This document shows positions 56,182 through 64,000 of a stretch of 64,000 nt of DNA, one piece after another. The position numbers were made by a program, and so were the translations under genes. Within the stretch, counting starts at the first letter, position 1. Each line of letters opens with the position of its first letter. Under the pieces are notes generated by a model. The model worked only from the letters and a program-made list of their open reading frames with translations, was not told where the DNA came from and ran no database searches. This DNA comes from Elusimicrobiota bacterium (lineage in GTDB: Bacteria > Elusimicrobiota > Elusimicrobia > F11), in the NCBI GenBank assembly GCA_022072025.1, contig JAJVIP010000002.1:473356-537355 (forward strand), written 5' to 3'.

Positions 56182-56802
56182 TTGGGAAACGTTGCTTGGG
56201 GAGGAGTTTTGGCCGCCGGTTGGCCGGTTTTATCTATTTTGTTTATTGCTTCGATTGTTACATTTGCCATTATTTTTGAGCGGTGGAAGGTCTTCTCACA
56301 AATCAAACTTCAATCGACACCATTTCTGGAATCTCTCAAGAAAACAGCTGATCCTGAAAAGATTGTTGCTTGGTGCGAAAAATCTGATCAACCGCTCGCG
56401 TCTATTGCCAAGGCTATATACAAAGCCCCTGGGAACCGGGAAGACAAAGAACGTTGGTTGGCCCGCAGCATTCAAGCTCTCGTTCAAAAATATGAAATGC
56501 GTGTGTCCATTTTGGGAACGGTGGCCAGCGTCGCTCCTTTTGTGGGGCTTTTAGGAACAGTGATTGGAATTATCCGGGCTTTTCATGCGGTGGCTTCCAC
56601 CTCATCTGAAGGGGCCAGCGCAGTGGCGATCGGTATTTCTGAGGCATTGGTGGGAACCGCGGCAGGTCTTGTTGTGGCCATTCCTGCCCTCCTCGCCTAT
56701 AACTATTTTGTGAATCAACTTCGACATTTCACCCAAGAATGGGAATTGACTGGACAAGAAATTATTGATCTTTCCTTAAAGAATGTTCGGGGGGAGTCAT
56801 GA
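56182..56802 (+). CDS. TolQ/ExbB-family proton-channel protein
   Basis: Proton-channel subunit that with TolR/ExbD energises an outer-membrane task using the proton gradient. 206 residues from a TTG start 5 bases after AGGAGG. Membrane helices at about 10-32, 112-135 and 155-180; the family core TVASVAPFVGLLGTVIGIIRAF and SEALVGTAAGLVVAIPALLAYN is intact. It lies in the order tolQ-tolR-tonB with ATGA overlaps. Confidence 0.93.
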   Translation: MGNVAWGGVLAAGWPVLSILFIASIVTFAIIFERWKVFSQIKLQSTPFLESLKKTADPEKIVAWCEKSDQPLASIAKAIYKAPGNREDKERWLARSIQALVQKYEMRVSILGTVASVAPFVGLLGTVIGIIRAFHAVASTSSEGASAVAIGISEALVGTAAGLVVAIPALLAYNYFVNQLRHFTQEWELTGQEIIDLSLKNVRGES

Positions 56803-57224
56803 AAATTGGAAGCGCCAATGGAACTGGCCGTTATCACATTCAAGCAGAAATCAACATGATTCCCTTGATTGATGTGGCCTTGGTTCTGCTTATTATTTTT
56901 ATGGTTATTTCTCCGATCTTGGTGGAATCACAATTGCGAGTAAAACTCCCCAAGGTCTCGTCATCGCCGAGTCATACCGAAGAAACCGCTTTGAAGGTTG
57001 AAATTTCCGCTGATGGAAAGTTTGCTTTGAACGGGAAAATGGTCACACGCGATGCCTTTAAAACGGCCTTGAATGTGCAACTCCCTCCGGGGCATAAGGC
57101 CTCCCTGTTGATCCAAGCCGACCGAGAATCTCGATTTAACGATGTGGTGTATGTGATGGATGTGGCCAAACAATTAAAAGTCGAAAACTTGGGTGTGGCG
57201 GTCCTTCCTGAATCAATGCACTGA
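56799..57224 (+). CDS. TolR/ExbD-family biopolymer transport protein
   Basis: Partner of the TolQ/ExbB protein. 141 residues: one membrane helix with the proton-carrying aspartate in INMIPLIDVALVLLIIFMV, then a periplasmic domain with LLIQADRESRFNDVVYVMD, the ExbD/TolR signature. Overlaps its neighbours on both sides by 4 bases and 1 base. Confidence 0.93.
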   Translation: MKIGSANGTGRYHIQAEINMIPLIDVALVLLIIFMVISPILVESQLRVKLPKVSSSPSHTEETALKVEISADGKFALNGKMVTRDAFKTALNVQLPPGHKASLLIQADRESRFNDVVYVMDVAKQLKVENLGVAVLPESMH

Positions 57225-58015
57225 TGCGGCGATACCTTCTTTCATCGGCCGGAATTCATTTTTCAATTTTGCTTCTGTTCTTTTTTTTCACCTGGTTGAA
57301 TCGGGGGAAAAATCTACTCATTATTGATGGTTTTGAATTTATAGGAGATGGCGGTGGTGGGGATGGCCGTCCTGGCGGAGGAGGGCCCAAGGCCGCTCAC
57401 ATGGGGCAAGTTGTCCCAGCCCCCGTTCGTGTTCCGATCCCTCAAAAACCAGGCCCCGTTCAAAAACCCACAAAAACTGAAGAGACCTGGAAAGTGAAAG
57501 ATCCCAAAAAAATCCCGGAGAAACCCAAAACAACGACATCTCCAGATACCCCAATTGAAACAGCTGAAACAAACCAAATTGAAAAGAGCAATATCATTCG
57601 CCGCGGTGTTGATCCAAATACCAAAGCAGGTGAAGGAGGGTTTGATTTTGGAACCGGAGAAGGCGGCGGGGGAGAGGGTGACGGAAAAGGAATGGGAATT
57701 GGCATCGGTTATGGTCCTGGTGAAGGAGGGGGGTTTGGAGGATTTGGAGGATATTTAAGAATTCTACGTCAACGAATATGGGCGGAATGGTCCCAATCCG
57801 CTGTTTATGGTTCAAATGAAGTCTGTATAGTGGGCCTCACAGTTTCAAAGGATGGTCAAGTGACAGACATAAAAGTGGAAAAACCGTCCAATAATTCTTT
57901 TTATGACAATGTGGCTTTGAGAGCGGTGCGGAACTCGTCGCCGCTTCCGCCACTGCCGGCGAGTTTTTCAAAATCCAGTCAACGTTTCAGAATTAAATTT
58001 CGTTTATTAGAGTAA
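57224..58015 (+). CDS. TonB/TolA-like periplasmic energy-transducing protein
   Basis: 263 residues: N-terminal membrane helix (about 10-26), a Pro/Lys-rich linker (about 65-110), a long glycine-rich spacer (GEGGFDFGTGEGGGGEGDGK and on to about residue 180), and a C-terminal TonB/TolA-type domain (GYLRILRQRIWAEWSQ, VGLTVSKDGQVTDIKVEKPS, NVALRAVRNSSPLPPLP). The glycine-rich segment instead of the usual Pro-Lys or Ala-Lys stretch is unusual. It follows TolR by a TGATG overlap. Whether it serves Tol (division) or TonB (uptake) is open; no TonB-dependent receptor or tolB/pal is present in the window. Confidence 0.88.
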   Translation: MRRYLLSSAGIHFSILLLFFFFTWLNRGKNLLIIDGFEFIGDGGGGDGRPGGGGPKAAHMGQVVPAPVRVPIPQKPGPVQKPTKTEETWKVKDPKKIPEKPKTTTSPDTPIETAETNQIEKSNIIRRGVDPNTKAGEGGFDFGTGEGGGGEGDGKGMGIGIGYGPGEGGGFGGFGGYLRILRQRIWAEWSQSAVYGSNEVCIVGLTVSKDGQVTDIKVEKPSNNSFYDNVALRAVRNSSPLPPLPASFSKSSQRFRIKFRLLE

Positions 58016-58019
58016 TCCC

Positions 58020-59051
58020 ATGAAAATTTTACTTATTCAGCTGCGTCGCATTGGAGACATCTTGTTAACTGGCCCGACCGCCGTTTATTTGAGAAATATA
58101 TTTCCTGAGTCCGAAATTCATATTCTGACAGAACCCGCGGGGATCCCGGTCATGGAAACAAATCCTTCTATTGATCGCGTTATGATCTACGACAAAAATC
58201 ATCCCTGGAGAATGATTCGTATGATTCGTTCAGGAAAATATGATGTGGTGTTTGATTTTATGAACAATCCTCGGACAGGTCTTTTAACACTTCTCAGTGG
58301 CGCCCGTTGGAAAGTGGGATGGAGCCACCCGGTTCGTAAAATATTTTATCAATGTGCTGTCCCTATCCCGGACTATCCTGAATATGTCCCTTTACGAAAA
58401 ATTCGAATGGTCAGAGCATGGTTGGCTAAAATCGGAAAACCCAATCCAGAACCTCAGATGCTATTGCCACAGATTAAAACCACAGCTGAGGATGAGTTGT
58501 TTGCTGATCAATGGATGGCCAAAGAAGCCTTAAAACCTCTTCAATTTGTGGTCATGGCGCCCGCCAGCCGATACGCGGTTCGCTCTTGGAGAAAAGAGGG
58601 TTATCGAAAGGTGGCTTTATCACTAATGAAGGATTTTGGTAAACGTGTTTTTATTGCCTGGGGCCCGGGAGAGGAAGATTTCGTGGAAGAAATTAGAAAG
58701 GGGGAAGGCGAGGCCATTGGTAAATTGCCCCAAACCAGTCTTCGTGAAATGGCGGCAATTTTTGCGCGGGCCTCCTTGGTCTTAACAGTTGATTGCGGCT
58801 CGATGCACACGGCCGTTTCAATGGGGACCCCGACCGTGACGCTTTACGGTCCTACGAGGCCCATAGATTGGAACCCGTCACTTTCTAATCTGGGAACCCG
58901 CGACGTGCCGGTTAATGTTCCAGATTTGGAATGTTTGGGTTGCCATCTGCATGAATGCAAGATCGGCCATATGTGCATGAATAATTTGACGGAGGAAAGA
59001 GTTTTAGAAGCCTGCAAGAAAATATTGTCAAAAGAGGAAATAAAAATATGA
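58020..59051 (+). CDS. Glycosyltransferase family 9 (heptosyltransferase-like)
   Basis: LPS core-type transferase of the WaaC/WaaF fold. 343 residues. N-terminal LLIQLRRIGDILLTGPTAVY, C-terminal nucleotide-binding LVLTVDCGSMHTAVSMGTPT and TLYGPTRPIDWNP, the GT9 signature. Four cysteines near the end (CLGCHLHEC, HMC) may bind metal. It starts 5 bases after tonB and its stop overlaps the DUF4254 N-half gene by 4 bases (ATGA), a pairing known from LPS loci. Confidence 0.9.
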   Translation: MKILLIQLRRIGDILLTGPTAVYLRNIFPESEIHILTEPAGIPVMETNPSIDRVMIYDKNHPWRMIRMIRSGKYDVVFDFMNNPRTGLLTLLSGARWKVGWSHPVRKIFYQCAVPIPDYPEYVPLRKIRMVRAWLAKIGKPNPEPQMLLPQIKTTAEDELFADQWMAKEALKPLQFVVMAPASRYAVRSWRKEGYRKVALSLMKDFGKRVFIAWGPGEEDFVEEIRKGEGEAIGKLPQTSLREMAAIFARASLVLTVDCGSMHTAVSMGTPTVTLYGPTRPIDWNPSLSNLGTRDVPVNVPDLECLGCHLHECKIGHMCMNNLTEERVLEACKKILSKEEIKI

Positions 59052-59263
59052 CGGAATCGAATCGGAAATTAGGAGCTTTGGTGGCCCATTTATGTCAAAC
59101 CAATATGGAGCTTTGGAAGGAGGAAGACAAAGCGCGAATGAGCGATGACTTGCAGGTGGTTCAAGCCAAACGAAATATCGACAAACTAAATCAAAAGAGA
59201 AATGATTTGATTGAAAAGATCGACGATTATGTTCTTCAGGTTGTGAGAGGTCCGGAGAAATAG
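59048..59263 (+). CDS. DUF4254-like protein, N-terminal half
   Basis: 71 residues. ALVAHLCQTNMELWKEEDKA then VQAKRNIDKLNQKRNDLIEK match the first half of DUF4254 proteins, which are normally about 200 residues and sit beside LPS glycosyltransferases in Bacteroidota. It ends one base before the ATG of the second half (TAG-C-ATG). Function of the family is unknown. That the two form one split protein is inference from order and from my memory of the intact family. Confidence 0.65.
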   Translation: MTESNRKLGALVAHLCQTNMELWKEEDKARMSDDLQVVQAKRNIDKLNQKRNDLIEKIDDYVLQVVRGPEK

Positions 59264-59264
59264 C

Positions 59265-59531
59265 ATGGCTGAAACTGTGGGAAGTTTGGTCGATAAAATA
59301 TCGATCATTGAATTGAAAATTTTTCATATGCAAAAACAGATCGATCGGAAAGACGCGAGTCCGGACCATCGCATGAAATGCGTTTCTCGGCTTGAAATCA
59401 TGCACGAACAACGCAATGATCTGGTCAGTGAGTTGTCAGATTTGTTCGACGCGGTCCTTTTGGGTCAAAAAAAGATGAAAGTTTATCGGCAGTTTAAGAT
59501 GTACAACGATCCGGCTTATCGAGCTTCTTGA
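59265..59531 (+). CDS. DUF4254-like protein, C-terminal half
   Basis: 88 residues. Starts at LVDKISIIELKIFHMQKQ, followed by DRKDASPDHRMKCVSRLEIM, the repeated HEQRNDLVSEL block, and the terminal KKMKVYRQFKMYNDPAY, which match the conserved end of DUF4254. Predicted all-helical. Together with the preceding 71-residue ORF it covers the whole family length. Convergent with the degenerate GGDEF gene 6 bases away. Confidence 0.7.
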   Translation: MAETVGSLVDKISIIELKIFHMQKQIDRKDASPDHRMKCVSRLEIMHEQRNDLVSELSDLFDAVLLGQKKMKVYRQFKMYNDPAYRAS

Positions 59532-59537
59532 AAAAGT

Positions 59538-60068
59538 TTAACGAGACAACTCAGCCACGTGAGCTCTCGCTCGGTTCAATAAGTCATTGACTCCCTCTCC
59601 ATCCCTGGGATAAATAGCCCAACCCACTCTGGCAAATAGGAGCGATGGATTCTGGGGCCATAAAAATTGTTGAAGAATATCGGTCCATCTGGATGTCAGG
59701 TCGTTGTAATGCCCTTGGCGAATGACATTTTGCGTGAGTGATACCAAACGCTGCGCGATGGTGTCGACTTTCGAGTGATCAACTGCATCGAATAAAAAAC
59801 CCAAGCCATCCTGATAGACCCCCACATATTGGCTGGGATGGACAGCCCGTCTGGCCGTGTTAAAGAGTTCCCTTAGAAATGAGTTGACCACGTGAGATGG
59901 ACGCTTACTCCTGAATTCACCCATATTTTCTATTTTAATCATGACGATAAAAAAAGGTTTTTTAAACTCAGCACTTTTCTGCATCGCCATTTGAATGCGC
60001 CCTATAAACTCTTGACCTGATATTTGACCACTGACTGAGACGGTCTTGTCTTGAACTTGATTGTTCAT
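59538..60068 (-). CDS. Degenerate GGDEF-like protein
   Basis: 176 residues resembling the diguanylate-cyclase fold (FFIVMIKIENMGEF, VNSFLRELFNTARR, ARVGWAIYPRDGEG with the closing DLLNRARAHV) but the catalytic GGDEF hairpin position reads YQDGLGFLF, so cyclase activity is unlikely. It could be a c-di-GMP- or GTP-sensing or scaffold domain. GGGGGG lies 7 bases before the ATG. Positioned next to a PilZ-containing operon. Confidence 0.75.
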   Translation of the reverse strand: MNNQVQDKTVSVSGQISGQEFIGRIQMAMQKSAEFKKPFFIVMIKIENMGEFRSKRPSHVVNSFLRELFNTARRAVHPSQYVGVYQDGLGFLFDAVDHSKVDTIAQRLVSLTQNVIRQGHYNDLTSRWTDILQQFLWPQNPSLLFARVGWAIYPRDGEGVNDLLNRARAHVAELSR

Positions 60069-60462: not shown

Positions 60463-60534
60463 ACCTTTCCCCTGTAAAATTCCTTCTTTTCATTCCAAGC
60501 TATGGACATTGTGTTTTATCCAAGGAGAATCCTC

Positions 60535-63500
60535 GTGCGATCCATAAACTTTTCTGTGTTAAAGTTATTTTTATTCATTTTAATTCGCTCATACGTTCAA
60601 GCTTATGACGATGTGAATCTTGAAAAGACCATTCCCTTGGTCGATAAAAAAGCTGCGCCGCATGTGCTTCGGCGGGACAGTCAAAATCGAATATGGATGA
60701 TCAATAAAACAAACCAAAGTATAGAGTGCGTTGGTCAAGATGGTAAATCCCAGGTTGTTTTGATGCCTGTTAAAAACGCTTCCCTTGGATTTAAAAACCC
60801 TGTCGATTTTGGTTTCTTGTCCGATGGGTCTCTGTTGGTGGCAGACAAGGGATTCGCTCGTATCATAAAAATATCTCCGGAAAAAATATTGACCGAATCT
60901 TCAGTTAAAGAATGGAAAAAATTCAAAATCGTTCAATCCTTCGAATCTAAAGATGTGTCCGCTATGGCTGTTAGTCAGGATGATATTGTCGCCGTGGCGA
61001 ATGAAGGTGAGGCCTCCCTTGCCATTTTCACCCCCGGTGGAATTCTTCTACATCGATTGTTCGCAACAGAAAAATATCCCATCAAAGAAGTAAAGGCGAT
61101 GGCTTATTCACCCAATGGTATTTTGTGGGTTTTGGAAGCGGGGAAAGGGGTTTTGCATCGATTCTCTCCTGATCGAAGATGGTTGGGGGTTACGGAAGGT
61201 TTTGAATCTGCCCAAGGAATCGCGGTGGATGAATATGGATATGCCTACATCACCATGGGTATCGGTCGATGGAAAGAAGTTTCTCCGGACGGAGTTCTTT
61301 CGGGGGTTTTTGGAACGAAGGGTAAAAATCCTGGTGAATTGTTGGCGCCTTCAGGTGTGACAATGCAGGAGGGGACCTTGTGCGTGGCAGAGGCAGGGAA
61401 CAAAAGAATTCAAATTTTCAAGGTCCGTAACAATGAAAAAAAGATCCGTCTATTTAAAGAACCGGCCGCCTATATCCAAGCCCAACACCAGGCTCAATGG
61501 CCCCATCCAATTTCCGACGGACTTTTTCTCCCATCTGGGGAGATGTTGTTTTTAAACAATGAAAAAGGAAAGTTTGACCGGGTGGACTCACATGGGGCCA
61601 TCAAATCTACTTGGAGGAAAAAATCCAAGGGCGAGACGCGGATTGTTAAACCGCACAGCCTTGCGCTCGACGCAGAAAATAATATCTGGTTTTCAGATGA
61701 AGCGGACCATTCACTCAAATTGATATCCGATTCAGGTGAAATCACCAAGACTGTTGGACAAAAAGGAAAGAAAGAAGGCAGCCTCAAATCTCCTACTCAT
61801 CTTGTTATTCGCAACGACGGATCATTTGTGGTCGTCGACAAGGGGAATTCACGCGTTCAAGTTTTAACTCCCAATGGTTTGTTCTTATTCCAGGTTGGCT
61901 CCAATGGAAATAAAGAAGGCCAATTTTCATCCGTGGCAGGCGTTGCCGCAAACACAGACCTCATAGCGTTGTTAGACTCCAACCGGAAAGCGCTGATATT
62001 TTTCAACTCTTCAGGAAAATTTTCGTTTGAAATTGCCAATAAAGAAGGAAAGGCTCCAACCTGGATCAATCCCGTTTCTCTGGCCACCGACACCGAGGGT
62101 CGTTTTTATATCTTAGATAAAGGCGCCAACCGTGTTCGAATTTTTAATAACAAAGGTCAATTTTTGGCGGATGTTTCAGTGATGGGGGATAAAATTAAAT
62201 GTGGTCCTCAAAATAAAGTGCTTGTGTTGTCGGAAAAAGGTGTTTCACTTTATGCCTTTTATTTGATCCCACGTGCGTGTTTGAATGCAACGGCTTTTGA
62301 GGAAGCAGGAGAACTTCAAGTCGATTGGGAGTCCAATCCGGAGGCAACAGAATATGCCGTGTATCGAGCATCCAGTGCATTTTTTGTTCCTATCAGTAAA
62401 GTTAAAAAACCTCCCTTTTTTGACAGGGAGGCGATTCCTGGGATCCTTTTCACCTATGCTGTGGTGGGTGTGAATTCAAATGGCAATGAAGGCAACTGGG
62501 CTCTCACCAACTCCATAAAAGCCCCGAAGAGAAAGGACGTCTCATTAATAAGTATTGAAAAAATAGATCTCAAGCCTGTTTTTACTGCTGCGTCTAAGTT
62601 TTATGTCACCAATCCCGTTGGAGAGATTTCGTTGCGTAACAACGATGAAATCCCGTTTCGAAACGTTAAGGTATCTTTGGGTTTAAAAAAATATACCGAC
62701 TATCCGACAGAAATCATTGTTTCAGAAATTGGGCCTGGTGAGGCCAAAACCACCCAAGTGACACTAACTTTTAATGATCAGATTTTTGAACTTACAGAAG
62801 ACACACCAGTTCAAATGGATATACAAGTGTCATATTTTGAAGAGAACGAGGAAAAGAAGGTTTCTCAAAACGCTCCGATCACGTTGTATTCGCGCAACTC
62901 CATATCCTGGAATGATAAAGCACGGATATCTTCGTTCATCACACCGAAAGATCCTCCAGTGGTTGAATTTACCCGCGCTGCCATTCGTGATCAAATGTTG
63001 CTCTTGAAAGGAGCCACTGTGGGGAAGCCGCTGGCGAAAGCCGCATTATTTTATGAAGCCATCAATGCATTGGGGGTGTCATATGCGCCAGACCCCAAGA
63101 CCCCTTTTGATCAGGCTTCCCAGAAACCAGATTTGTTGGATTATGTTCAATTTCCTCGGGAAACTCTCCGGAGAAAAACAGGAGATTGCGACGATACCAC
63201 CGCGCTTTTGGCTTCTCTTCTGGAAAGCGTGGGTGTATCCGCCGCGTTGGTGGATATGCCAGGTCACGTTTTGTTGATGGCCAACACTGAAGAAACAGAT
63301 ATCAATGTATTGGGGTTGCCAGAAGAGCGGTTTGTCAATTTTGAGGGAACTTATTGGGTCCCGATAGAAACGACAAAATTGGGCCAGGGTTTCCTGAAAG
63401 CATGGCAAGCGGGGATCGCCAAGGTGACGTCTGAGATGGGTAAAAATTCAGTTCAGTTTGCCCGAATTTCAAACGCCGCTTTAACTTACCCGCCAGTCAC

Positions 63501-64000
63501 TTTGGTTGAAGTCGATAAAGAAGGGACTGTTTACCCATCAGAAAAGGTTGGCAAGGTTTTTCCAGGTTTACTCAAAGATATGGAAATGGAACGCTATCAA
63601 GGAAAACTTAAAGAAATCAATGAACGCATAAAATTAAATCCTGCCAATCGAATGCTTCATATCGAATTGGGATTAATCCATGTCGAAGGGAAAAACTTAT
63701 CTGAGGGCAATAAGGTTTTTGTATCGCTTCTTAAAGAAGATGAACCTCTCGAAGTTCAAGCGGCGGCAAGAAACAATCTGGGTAATTTGGCCTATTTGGA
63801 AGGAAATTATAAAGACGCGAAAATCCATTACGAAAAAGCCCAAAGTTTGCAACCAGATGATGGCGGCATCTATGTGAACAAGGCCCGATTGGCTTGGAAA
63901 ATGGGGGAGAAAGAATCCATCCAACCTTTTTTAGAAAAAGCCAAAGCATCTTTACCTGAGTGGCAAGAATTCGCGTCAGATATCCCAATTGAATATTTTC
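60535..64000 (+). CDS. Secreted NHL-propeller / FN3 / transglutaminase-like / TPR protein (3' truncated by window end)
   Basis: At least 1,155 residues, still open at the window edge. GTG start 7 bases after AAGGAG; signal peptide to about residue 23 (VQAYDD). Order: NHL/6-bladed-propeller repeats (about 30-560; e.g. HSLALDAENNIWFSDEADHS), fibronectin III-like domain (about 580-660), CARDB-like beta domain (about 690-760, LRNNDEIPFRNVKVSLG), a transglutaminase-like cysteine domain (about 800-950) with RKTGDCDDTTALLASLLESV (Cys885), MPGHVLLM (His911) and YWVPIETT (Glu945), and TPR repeats at the end (NNLGNLAYLEGNYKDAKIHY). Extracellular or periplasmic; a crosslinking or peptide-cleaving role is inferred only from the catalytic triad. 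Confidence 0.8.
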   Translation, partial: MRSINFSVLKLFLFILIRSYVQAYDDVNLEKTIPLVDKKAAPHVLRRDSQNRIWMINKTNQSIECVGQDGKSQVVLMPVKNASLGFKNPVDFGFLSDGSLLVADKGFARIIKISPEKILTESSVKEWKKFKIVQSFESKDVSAMAVSQDDIVAVANEGEASLAIFTPGGILLHRLFATEKYPIKEVKAMAYSPNGILWVLEAGKGVLHRFSPDRRWLGVTEGFESAQGIAVDEYGYAYITMGIGRWKEVSPDGVLSGVFGTKGKNPGELLAPSGVTMQEGTLCVAEAGNKRIQIFKVRNNEKKIRLFKEPAAYIQAQHQAQWPHPISDGLFLPSGEMLFLNNEKGKFDRVDSHGAIKSTWRKKSKGETRIVKPHSLALDAENNIWFSDEADHSLKLISDSGEITKTVGQKGKKEGSLKSPTHLVIRNDGSFVVVDKGNSRVQVLTPNGLFLFQVGSNGNKEGQFSSVAGVAANTDLIALLDSNRKALIFFNSSGKFSFEIANKEGKAPTWINPVSLATDTEGRFYILDKGANRVRIFNNKGQFLADVSVMGDKIKCGPQNKVLVLSEKGVSLYAFYLIPRACLNATAFEEAGELQVDWESNPEATEYAVYRASSAFFVPISKVKKPPFFDREAIPGILFTYAVVGVNSNGNEGNWALTNSIKAPKRKDVSLISIEKIDLKPVFTAASKFYVTNPVGEISLRNNDEIPFRNVKVSLGLKKYTDYPTEIIVSEIGPGEAKTTQVTLTFNDQIFELTEDTPVQMDIQVSYFEENEEKKVSQNAPITLYSRNSISWNDKARISSFITPKDPPVVEFTRAAIRDQMLLLKGATVGKPLAKAALFYEAINALGVSYAPDPKTPFDQASQKPDLLDYVQFPRETLRRKTGDCDDTTALLASLLESVGVSAALVDMPGHVLLMANTEETDINVLGLPEERFVNFEGTYWVPIETTKLGQGFLKAWQAGIAKVTSEMGKNSVQFARISNAALTYPPVTLVEVDKEGTVYPSEKVGKVFPGLLKDMEMERYQGKLKEINERIKLNPANRMLHIELGLIHVEGKNLSEGNKVFVSLLKEDEPLEVQAAARNNLGNLAYLEGNYKDAKIHYEKAQSLQPDDGGIYVNKARLAWKMGEKESIQPFLEKAKASLPEWQEFASDIPIEYF

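Follow-up and report, generated by a model that had tools for sequence, protein, structure and literature searches.

A propeller-bearing, transglutaminase-like putative cysteine hydrolase and its small partner protein in Elusimicrobiota and other bacterial phyla

Introduction

What is the function of an apparently exported bacterial protein that joins NHL propellers to a transglutaminase-like domain, and on which protein might it act? The question is raised by a gene at the end of a 64,000-nucleotide stretch of an Elusimicrobiota genome (assembly GCA_022072025.1, contig JAJVIP010000002.1, positions 473,356 to 537,355; hereafter the window). The gene (60535–64005, + strand, in window numbering) starts with GTG, is followed by a stop codon at 64006–64008, and encodes a protein of 1157 amino acids. 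Here, we report that this protein and the product of the next gene, a small partner protein, constitute a real and conserved module; their near-constant association and the fixed short motif of the partner suggest, at the level of sequence, an enzyme-and-substrate pair common to several bacterial phyla. We consider the chances about even that the larger protein is exported and works as a cysteine hydrolase, probably a protease, that acts on the partner at or near this motif in a manner resembling that of LapG but as a member of another family. No description of the enzyme-partner module or of this domain combination was found in the open-access literature searched.

An enzyme gene followed by a gene for a small partner

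The open reading frame is real and begins at GTG 60535. This start is favored because AAGGAG precedes it by seven bases, whereas direct reading reveals no such element before the ATG at 60502 of a longer frame. The frame is open up to the end of the window; the host contig (from a genome of 3.64 Mb in 43 contigs) continues it to YFPK and a stop codon that ends 8 nucleotides beyond the window, which rules out a truncated giant. Only the last two residues and the stop codon (64001–64008) fall outside. An initial annotation of the window had described a secreted "giant" of more than 1,155 residues and called for the downstream sequence. The length was accurate, although "giant" proved generous for a protein from which almost nothing was missing, and the downstream sequence supplied both the stop codon and the next gene. 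That gene, which encodes the partner and lay beyond the view of the initial annotation, is the best clue to function. It starts 11 nucleotides past the stop codon of the enzyme gene, and its product has an apparent signal peptide.

A homologue search yielded 204 relatives of the enzyme; counts of neighboring genes below rest on 80 named, related loci. The closest named relatives, with approximately 48–50% identity, are metagenome-assembled genomes of Elusimicrobia and Candidatus Obscuribacterium magneticum, and named isolates that carry the enzyme gene include Hylemonella gracilis ATCC 19624 and Curvibacter sp. PAE-UM. Searches with a profile of the partner detected it in 74 of the 80 loci, directly downstream of the enzyme gene and in the same orientation; 59 loci contributed to the profile, so 15 of the 74 are independent matches. 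Four of the six loci that lack a downstream partner retain 227 nucleotides or fewer after the enzyme gene, locus L065 has a degenerate partner without the VRG core just downstream, and for locus L087 a copy lies elsewhere in the genome. Clustering of neighbors had recovered the partner in 46/80 loci, partly because antisense frames displaced it during gene calling.

The two genes also occur together across genomes. In the class to which the window belongs (60 genomes), the partner was detected in 26/26 genomes with the enzyme and in 1/34 without it; the enzyme profile search listed 28 genomes of the class, two of which (G014 and G015) match over the propellers only. Among 80 genomes of the Gallionellaceae (the family of G062, whose locus L117 bears that name), the partner was found in 30 of 32 that encode the enzyme domain and in none of the 48 others. 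Fisher tests gave p values of 4e-16 for the class and 6e-20 for the family, both of which overstate the evidence because the genomes are related and their kinship is ignored. In genome G007 the two genes are both present but sit on separate contigs, which argues for a functional connection rather than mere linkage, and G063 and G224 have a second copy of the partner elsewhere in the genome. For the Burkholderiaceae-type family to which G060 belongs, the partner search gave matches within a threshold of E 1e-5 in 30 of 120 genomes; 29 of these matches are weak (E 7e-11 or worse) and nearly all correspond to the C-terminal hairpin alone, with the full partner present in G060 only.

A short, near-invariant motif in the partner

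The partner proteins have few features in common: an N-terminal helix (recognized on inspection), the motif V[AG][AG]VRG, and a C-terminal TPR-like hairpin with an invariant F and an invariant P. Within the motif, R is identical in 75/75 partners, V in 72/75, and G in 73/75. The spacing to either side of the motif varies, so the motif probably resides in a loop. Variants include AVGGVRG (21/75) and AAGGVRG (6/75), and YW follows the motif by 9–15 residues in 40 of the 75 partners. A search of the host genome for the encoded motif returned two places only, the partner and one spurious-looking site; the control returned 3.

These features bear on two other roles for the partner. The first is that of a dedicated inhibitor, activator, or docking protein, the VRG motif of which would sit in the cleft or on a propeller and control an enzyme that has another target. 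The small partner is obligate, it persists when unlinked (G007 and G068), and an inhibitor that binds in the cleft could equally well carry a short invariant motif. We nonetheless regard this possibility as unlikely: no other target was seen, and known enzyme-substrate pairs offer a parallel for a cysteine hydrolase whose small exported partner displays a helix and then a small-residue motif. The second role is that of an acceptor for a true crosslinker, in which lysines of the partner (the KKK stretch and YWKG) become joined to glutamines of envelope proteins or to other partners. Such a reaction would account for the transglutaminase-like domain and for the abundance of lysine near the motif. 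However, the KKK and YWKG lysines are absent from many Elusimicrobiota partners that keep VRG, the partner contains no invariant Gln or Lys, and many bacterial members of the transglutaminase-like superfamily are thought to be proteases. Crosslinking thus appears improbable, and of the two activities that the initial annotation had offered, crosslinking or processing, the latter fits better.

An unvarying Cys-His-Glu set

The initial annotation had singled out Cys885, His911, and Glu945 as catalytic-looking, a view that the alignments bear out. These three residues are identical in 81/81 aligned sequences from several phyla, as are G883 and D887, and the Cys/His/Glu set is likewise identical in 26/26 sequences of a separate set. 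An alignment of 67 sequences contains only 23 invariant columns in the whole protein, C885, H911, and E945 among them. Invariance on this scale indicates that the set is not a chance pattern. The conserved sequence of Cys, His, and an acidic residue is that of the transglutaminase-like superfamily. In the predicted structure, C885 is the first residue of a helix (885–898), H911 is the first residue of a strand (911–917), and E945 directly follows a strand (939–944). A Cys at the start of a helix, with His and the acidic residue on strands, is typical of the transglutaminase fold, and the modeled order of elements fits that fold. The Cys is embedded in D-C-D in the window protein and in Q-C-D or Q-C-S in many relatives.

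A further possibility is that the transglutaminase-like domain is merely structural and that the two proteins form a scaffold for envelope assembly or transport. The propellers and TPRs are binding modules, and the C-terminus of the partner weakly resembles the YbgF (14/40 members, best E 4e-6) and BamD (9/40, 6e-4) models. A purely structural domain is hard to reconcile with a Cys, His, and Glu that are never lost in 81 sequences across phyla, and we consider this explanation quite unlikely.

Domain architecture

An AlphaFold2 model of the whole protein, built from 67 sequences, had a mean pLDDT of 91.1 and a pTM of 0.68; a second model of residues 654–1016 alone reached 91.1 and 0.87, respectively. 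The predicted structure comprises two six-bladed NHL propellers followed by FN3-like, Ig-like, and transglutaminase-like domains and a series of TPR helices (Table 1). In a fold search, the best match of the propellers to NHL structures had a Z score of 30.4 with a root-mean-square deviation of 2.7 over 261 aligned residues, in keeping with six-bladed NHL propellers. Pfam models that exceeded their cut-offs in the window protein were NHL (3e-19) and TPR (1.7e-6). Short, weak matches below cut-off were obtained for DUF553 (0.014) and Transglut_core (0.043; 14.6 versus 23 bits); in one relative (L112) Transglut_core is over its cut-off (5.5e-6, 27.1 bits), and at E values up to 0.1, DUF553 (PF04473) matches 42/46 family members and Transglut_core (PF01841) 34/46. 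Pfam fn3 has no match in the window protein itself. The FN3 region is longer outside Elusimicrobiota, where L103 and L112 contain fn3 matches, and in both the stretch aligned to residues 654–1016 runs approximately 80 residues longer.

The domain list of the initial annotation holds for the NHL and TPR regions, which Pfam recognizes, and for the FN3-like and transglutaminase-like domains, for which models and relatives speak. Its CARDB-like region lacks such backing: CARDB has no Pfam match in the window protein at E up to 1, and the predicted domain is Ig-like, with Z scores of 9–12 to many unrelated Ig-like sandwiches, including the beta-barrels of eukaryotic transglutaminases. As modeled, this domain is a generic sandwich whose fold matches say nothing about function. 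Fold-search lists were filled by NHL and Ig-like domains, leaving no separate match for the enzyme domain; sequence searches of the PDB with the Ig-like and transglutaminase-like part returned no relatives at E up to 1. The inference of export rests on inspection of the N-terminus, which appears to be a signal peptide that aligns with those of homologues; the secreted location proposed initially is in line with this. The combination of domains, called unusual at the outset, is so with respect to the open-access literature searched; among genomes, it marks a conserved family.

Table 1 Features of the enzyme gene, its product, and the partner gene (window numbering).
Feature	Residues	Position	Strand	Basis
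Shine-Dalgarno-like AAGGAG		60522-60527	+	Direct reading
Apparent signal peptide	1-23	60535-60603	+	By eye: hydrophobic N-terminus, VQA then YDD; homologues align with theirs
NHL propeller 1	25-299	60607-61431	+	Pfam NHL; model; Z ~30 versus NHL domains
NHL propeller 2	312-577	61468-62265	+	Pfam; model; Brat NHL matches over model 312-577
FN3-like domain	583-653	62281-62493	+	Model; Pfam fn3 in relatives
Ig-like domain (initially CARDB-like)	672-785	62548-62889	+	Models; fold matches
Transglutaminase-like domain	790-985	62902-63489	+	Pfam DUF553 42/46 and Transglut_core 34/46 members; models
Presumed nucleophile	Cys885	63187-63189	+	81/81 sequences
Histidine of the set	His911	63265-63267	+	81/81 sequences
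Third residue of the set	Glu945	63367-63369	+	81/81 sequences
TPR region	1002-1150	63538-63984	+	Pfam TPR; helical in model
Partner gene (AVAAVRG + YWKG), outside window	160 aa	64020-64502	+	Host contig beyond window

Comparison with LapG and with anti-phage proteins

LapG is reported to cut adhesins at a [T/A/P]AAG site that follows a targeting helix (PMC13090378, PMC3032545); acidic calcium ligands, D316 and E318, are described as flanking C317 of DvhG (PMC13090378). The window protein resembles LapG and DvhG in being an apparently exported transglutaminase-like cysteine enzyme with a linked substrate candidate, in which a helix precedes a small-residue motif. GDCxD surrounds its Cys, and 6 of the 75 partners read AAGG, close to the [T/A/P]AAG consensus (PMC13090378). 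The differences are equally clear. The window family has Glu in place of the Asp of the C-H-D triad of LapG, the partner is small whereas LapG substrates are large adhesins, and a CHASE2 cyclase is found nearby instead of LapD. Membership in the LapG family was ruled out: PF06035 (LapG/BTLCP) matches 0/46 members at E up to 0.1, and hhalign comparisons with two PF06035 proteins gave 17–21%, around the Cys only. By analogy, the mode of action would be of a known kind, periplasmic transglutaminase-like proteolysis; the novelty would lie in the enzyme family, the architecture, and the neighbors. The DUF553 and Transglut_core models, in contrast to the module, include no partner gene. NF035926, the model for ScyF and other exported NHL propeller proteins, matches the NHL repeats (1.6e-29); its score is below cut-off (103 versus 350 bits) and its match contains no enzyme domain.

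The Ig-like and transglutaminase-like domains together form a unit with relatives elsewhere. NF058533 (antiphage_ProA) matches 45/46 members over this unit, across approximately its first 290 positions, and an hhalign comparison of the unit with a plasmid-encoded DUF3320 protein gave 96.4% (E 1.4e-9, 219 columns). DUF3320/DUF4011 proteins have the same order of domains, Ig-like and then transglutaminase-like, and the occurrence of the unit in ProA/DUF3320 proteins indicates a portable catalytic module. A 2013 survey describes giant proteins that combine a transglutaminase-like peptidase with an SF-I helicase, a Vsr nuclease, and a wHTH domain that overlaps DUF3320, and proposes that the transglutaminase domain cleaves protein (PMC3710099). 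These comparisons raise the possibility that the window protein is itself an envelope defense protein. We consider this very remote. The ProA match scores 61.5 bits, far under the family cut-off of 1500, and covers positions 11–289 of 1903; the helicase or nuclease part is absent; PADLOC matched 0/3 proteins scanned; and in 20 of the 80 loci the gene keeps a stable chromosomal place beside gatB (identified by eye). The DUF3320/DUF4011 proteins belong to helicase-nuclease defense (PMC3710099), whereas the window protein has an apparent signal peptide, propellers, TPRs, and a partner gene. The comparison thus provides exported relatives for the catalytic unit of ProA-type defense proteins. No papers describing ProA itself were found in the open-access literature searched.

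Plasmid searches with the unit of the window protein yielded six weak matches, five of them DUF3320 proteins; the unit of L112 found none in plasmids, and the whole L112 protein found none in phages. The plasmid protein of the hhalign comparison (L131, 2429–5708), a DUF3320/DUF4011 helicase-type protein of Sinorhizobium alkalisoli, has the Ig and transglutaminase-like unit at its N-terminus. It retains the Cys, the His, and the Glu of FETT, the last recognized by eye.

Proposed mechanism

We propose a model in which the enzyme acts in the periplasm or at the cell surface, where its two NHL propellers, FN3-like and Ig-like domains, and TPRs would position it. The dedicated partner, the small exported product of the next gene, would be the substrate. 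Cys885, aided by His911 and Glu945, would attack the partner at or beside V[AG][AG]VRG and clip it.

Several observations weigh against this model. Presence and absence of the two genes track phylogeny, so their co-occurrence does not amount to 140 independent tests. Two Gallionellaceae genomes (G217 and G223) carry the enzyme with no detected partner, and the 72% complete genome G039 has a partner (L143, 3445–4029, − strand, motif SVASVRG) with no detected enzyme. The motif is not the sole constraint on the partner, inasmuch as F and P in the C-terminal hairpin are also invariant, and it could serve in docking or inhibition. The third residue of the presumed catalytic set is Glu in 81/81 sequences; in the transglutaminase-like superfamily it is usually, although not universally, Asp. 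Finally, the residue before the Cys (position 884) is D or Q by lineage. Its pairing with YW in the partner (36/36 enzymes with D have YW, 33/34 with Q lack it) was considered as covariation and dropped; although nearly perfect as a tabulation, it is not significant and fails an independent-pairs test, since the tree shows no more than 2 and 3 changes and one main event.

Neighboring genes and a possible link to signaling

Outside Elusimicrobiota (34 loci), a gene for a CHASE2 receptor cyclase lies directly upstream of the enzyme gene in 29/29 loci that have at least 301 nucleotides upstream, 28 in the same direction and 1 divergent. The search model for this cyclase was built from 24 of those 29 loci, and Pfam identified CHASE2 and a nucleotide cyclase domain in 5/5 upstream proteins scanned. 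In these bacteria, the pair is probably wired to the receptor cyclase, which would signal. Elusimicrobiota loci have no adjacent CHASE2 gene; there gatB lies upstream in the 20 loci mentioned, and gatA and a UvrD-type helicase, also identified by eye, recur near the enzyme. A general need for CHASE2 in Elusimicrobiota was considered and rejected: CHASE2 occurs in 26/26 genomes with the enzyme, but also in 18/34 without it. Its presence there is uninformative for that reason and because neither of the two host copies is on the contig of the window.

Taken to its fullest extent, the model describes a periplasmic proteolytic switch that is independent of LapG. A propeller-mounted Cys-His-Glu protease would clip the partner at V[AG][AG]VRG, and outside Elusimicrobiota the CHASE2 receptor adenylate cyclase would read or set this event and so connect proteolysis in the envelope with cAMP. 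Such a switch would be old, common to Elusimicrobiota, Desulfobacterota, Betaproteobacteria, and Nitrospirota, and its catalytic unit would also reside inside anti-phage helicases. This extended model is possible but doubtful as a whole. Outside the Lap system, to our knowledge, few pairs of a periplasmic protease and its substrate are known in which a linear motif has been defined. The present system can be recognized from sequence alone, and is directly testable because it presents one candidate substrate, one candidate motif, and an adjacent candidate sensor, and occurs in named isolates. It offers a possible role for genes that, in Elusimicrobiota, iron-oxidizing Gallionellaceae, and sulfate reducers, have otherwise been visible only as encoding NHL, TPR, or hypothetical proteins.

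Additional observations

Partner copies in other genomes illustrate variation in the family. At L144 (4324–4680), a degenerate partner right after the enzyme keeps a signal-like start and the helix and has lost the VRG core and the hairpin. Second, unlinked copies are found in two Gallionellaceae genomes (L140, 3564–4010; L139, 4104–4577), and the copy in L140 is flanked by two large open reading frames that resemble secreted lipoproteins.

Upstream of the enzyme gene in the window, a row of ExbB, ExbD, and TonB-like genes (56182–58015, + strand) was considered as part of the system and set aside; it does not recur among the 40 neighbor clusters listed and is probably unrelated to the enzyme. 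A DUF4254 gene at 59048–59531 (+ strand) is seemingly split into two overlapping short open reading frames, the first extending to approximately 59266 and the second (59265–59531) covering only positions 73–144 of the 144-position DUF4254 profile. On the opposite strand, 59538–60068 encodes a short protein with a GGDEF match below cut-off (E 0.0015), possibly a degenerate diguanylate cyclase.

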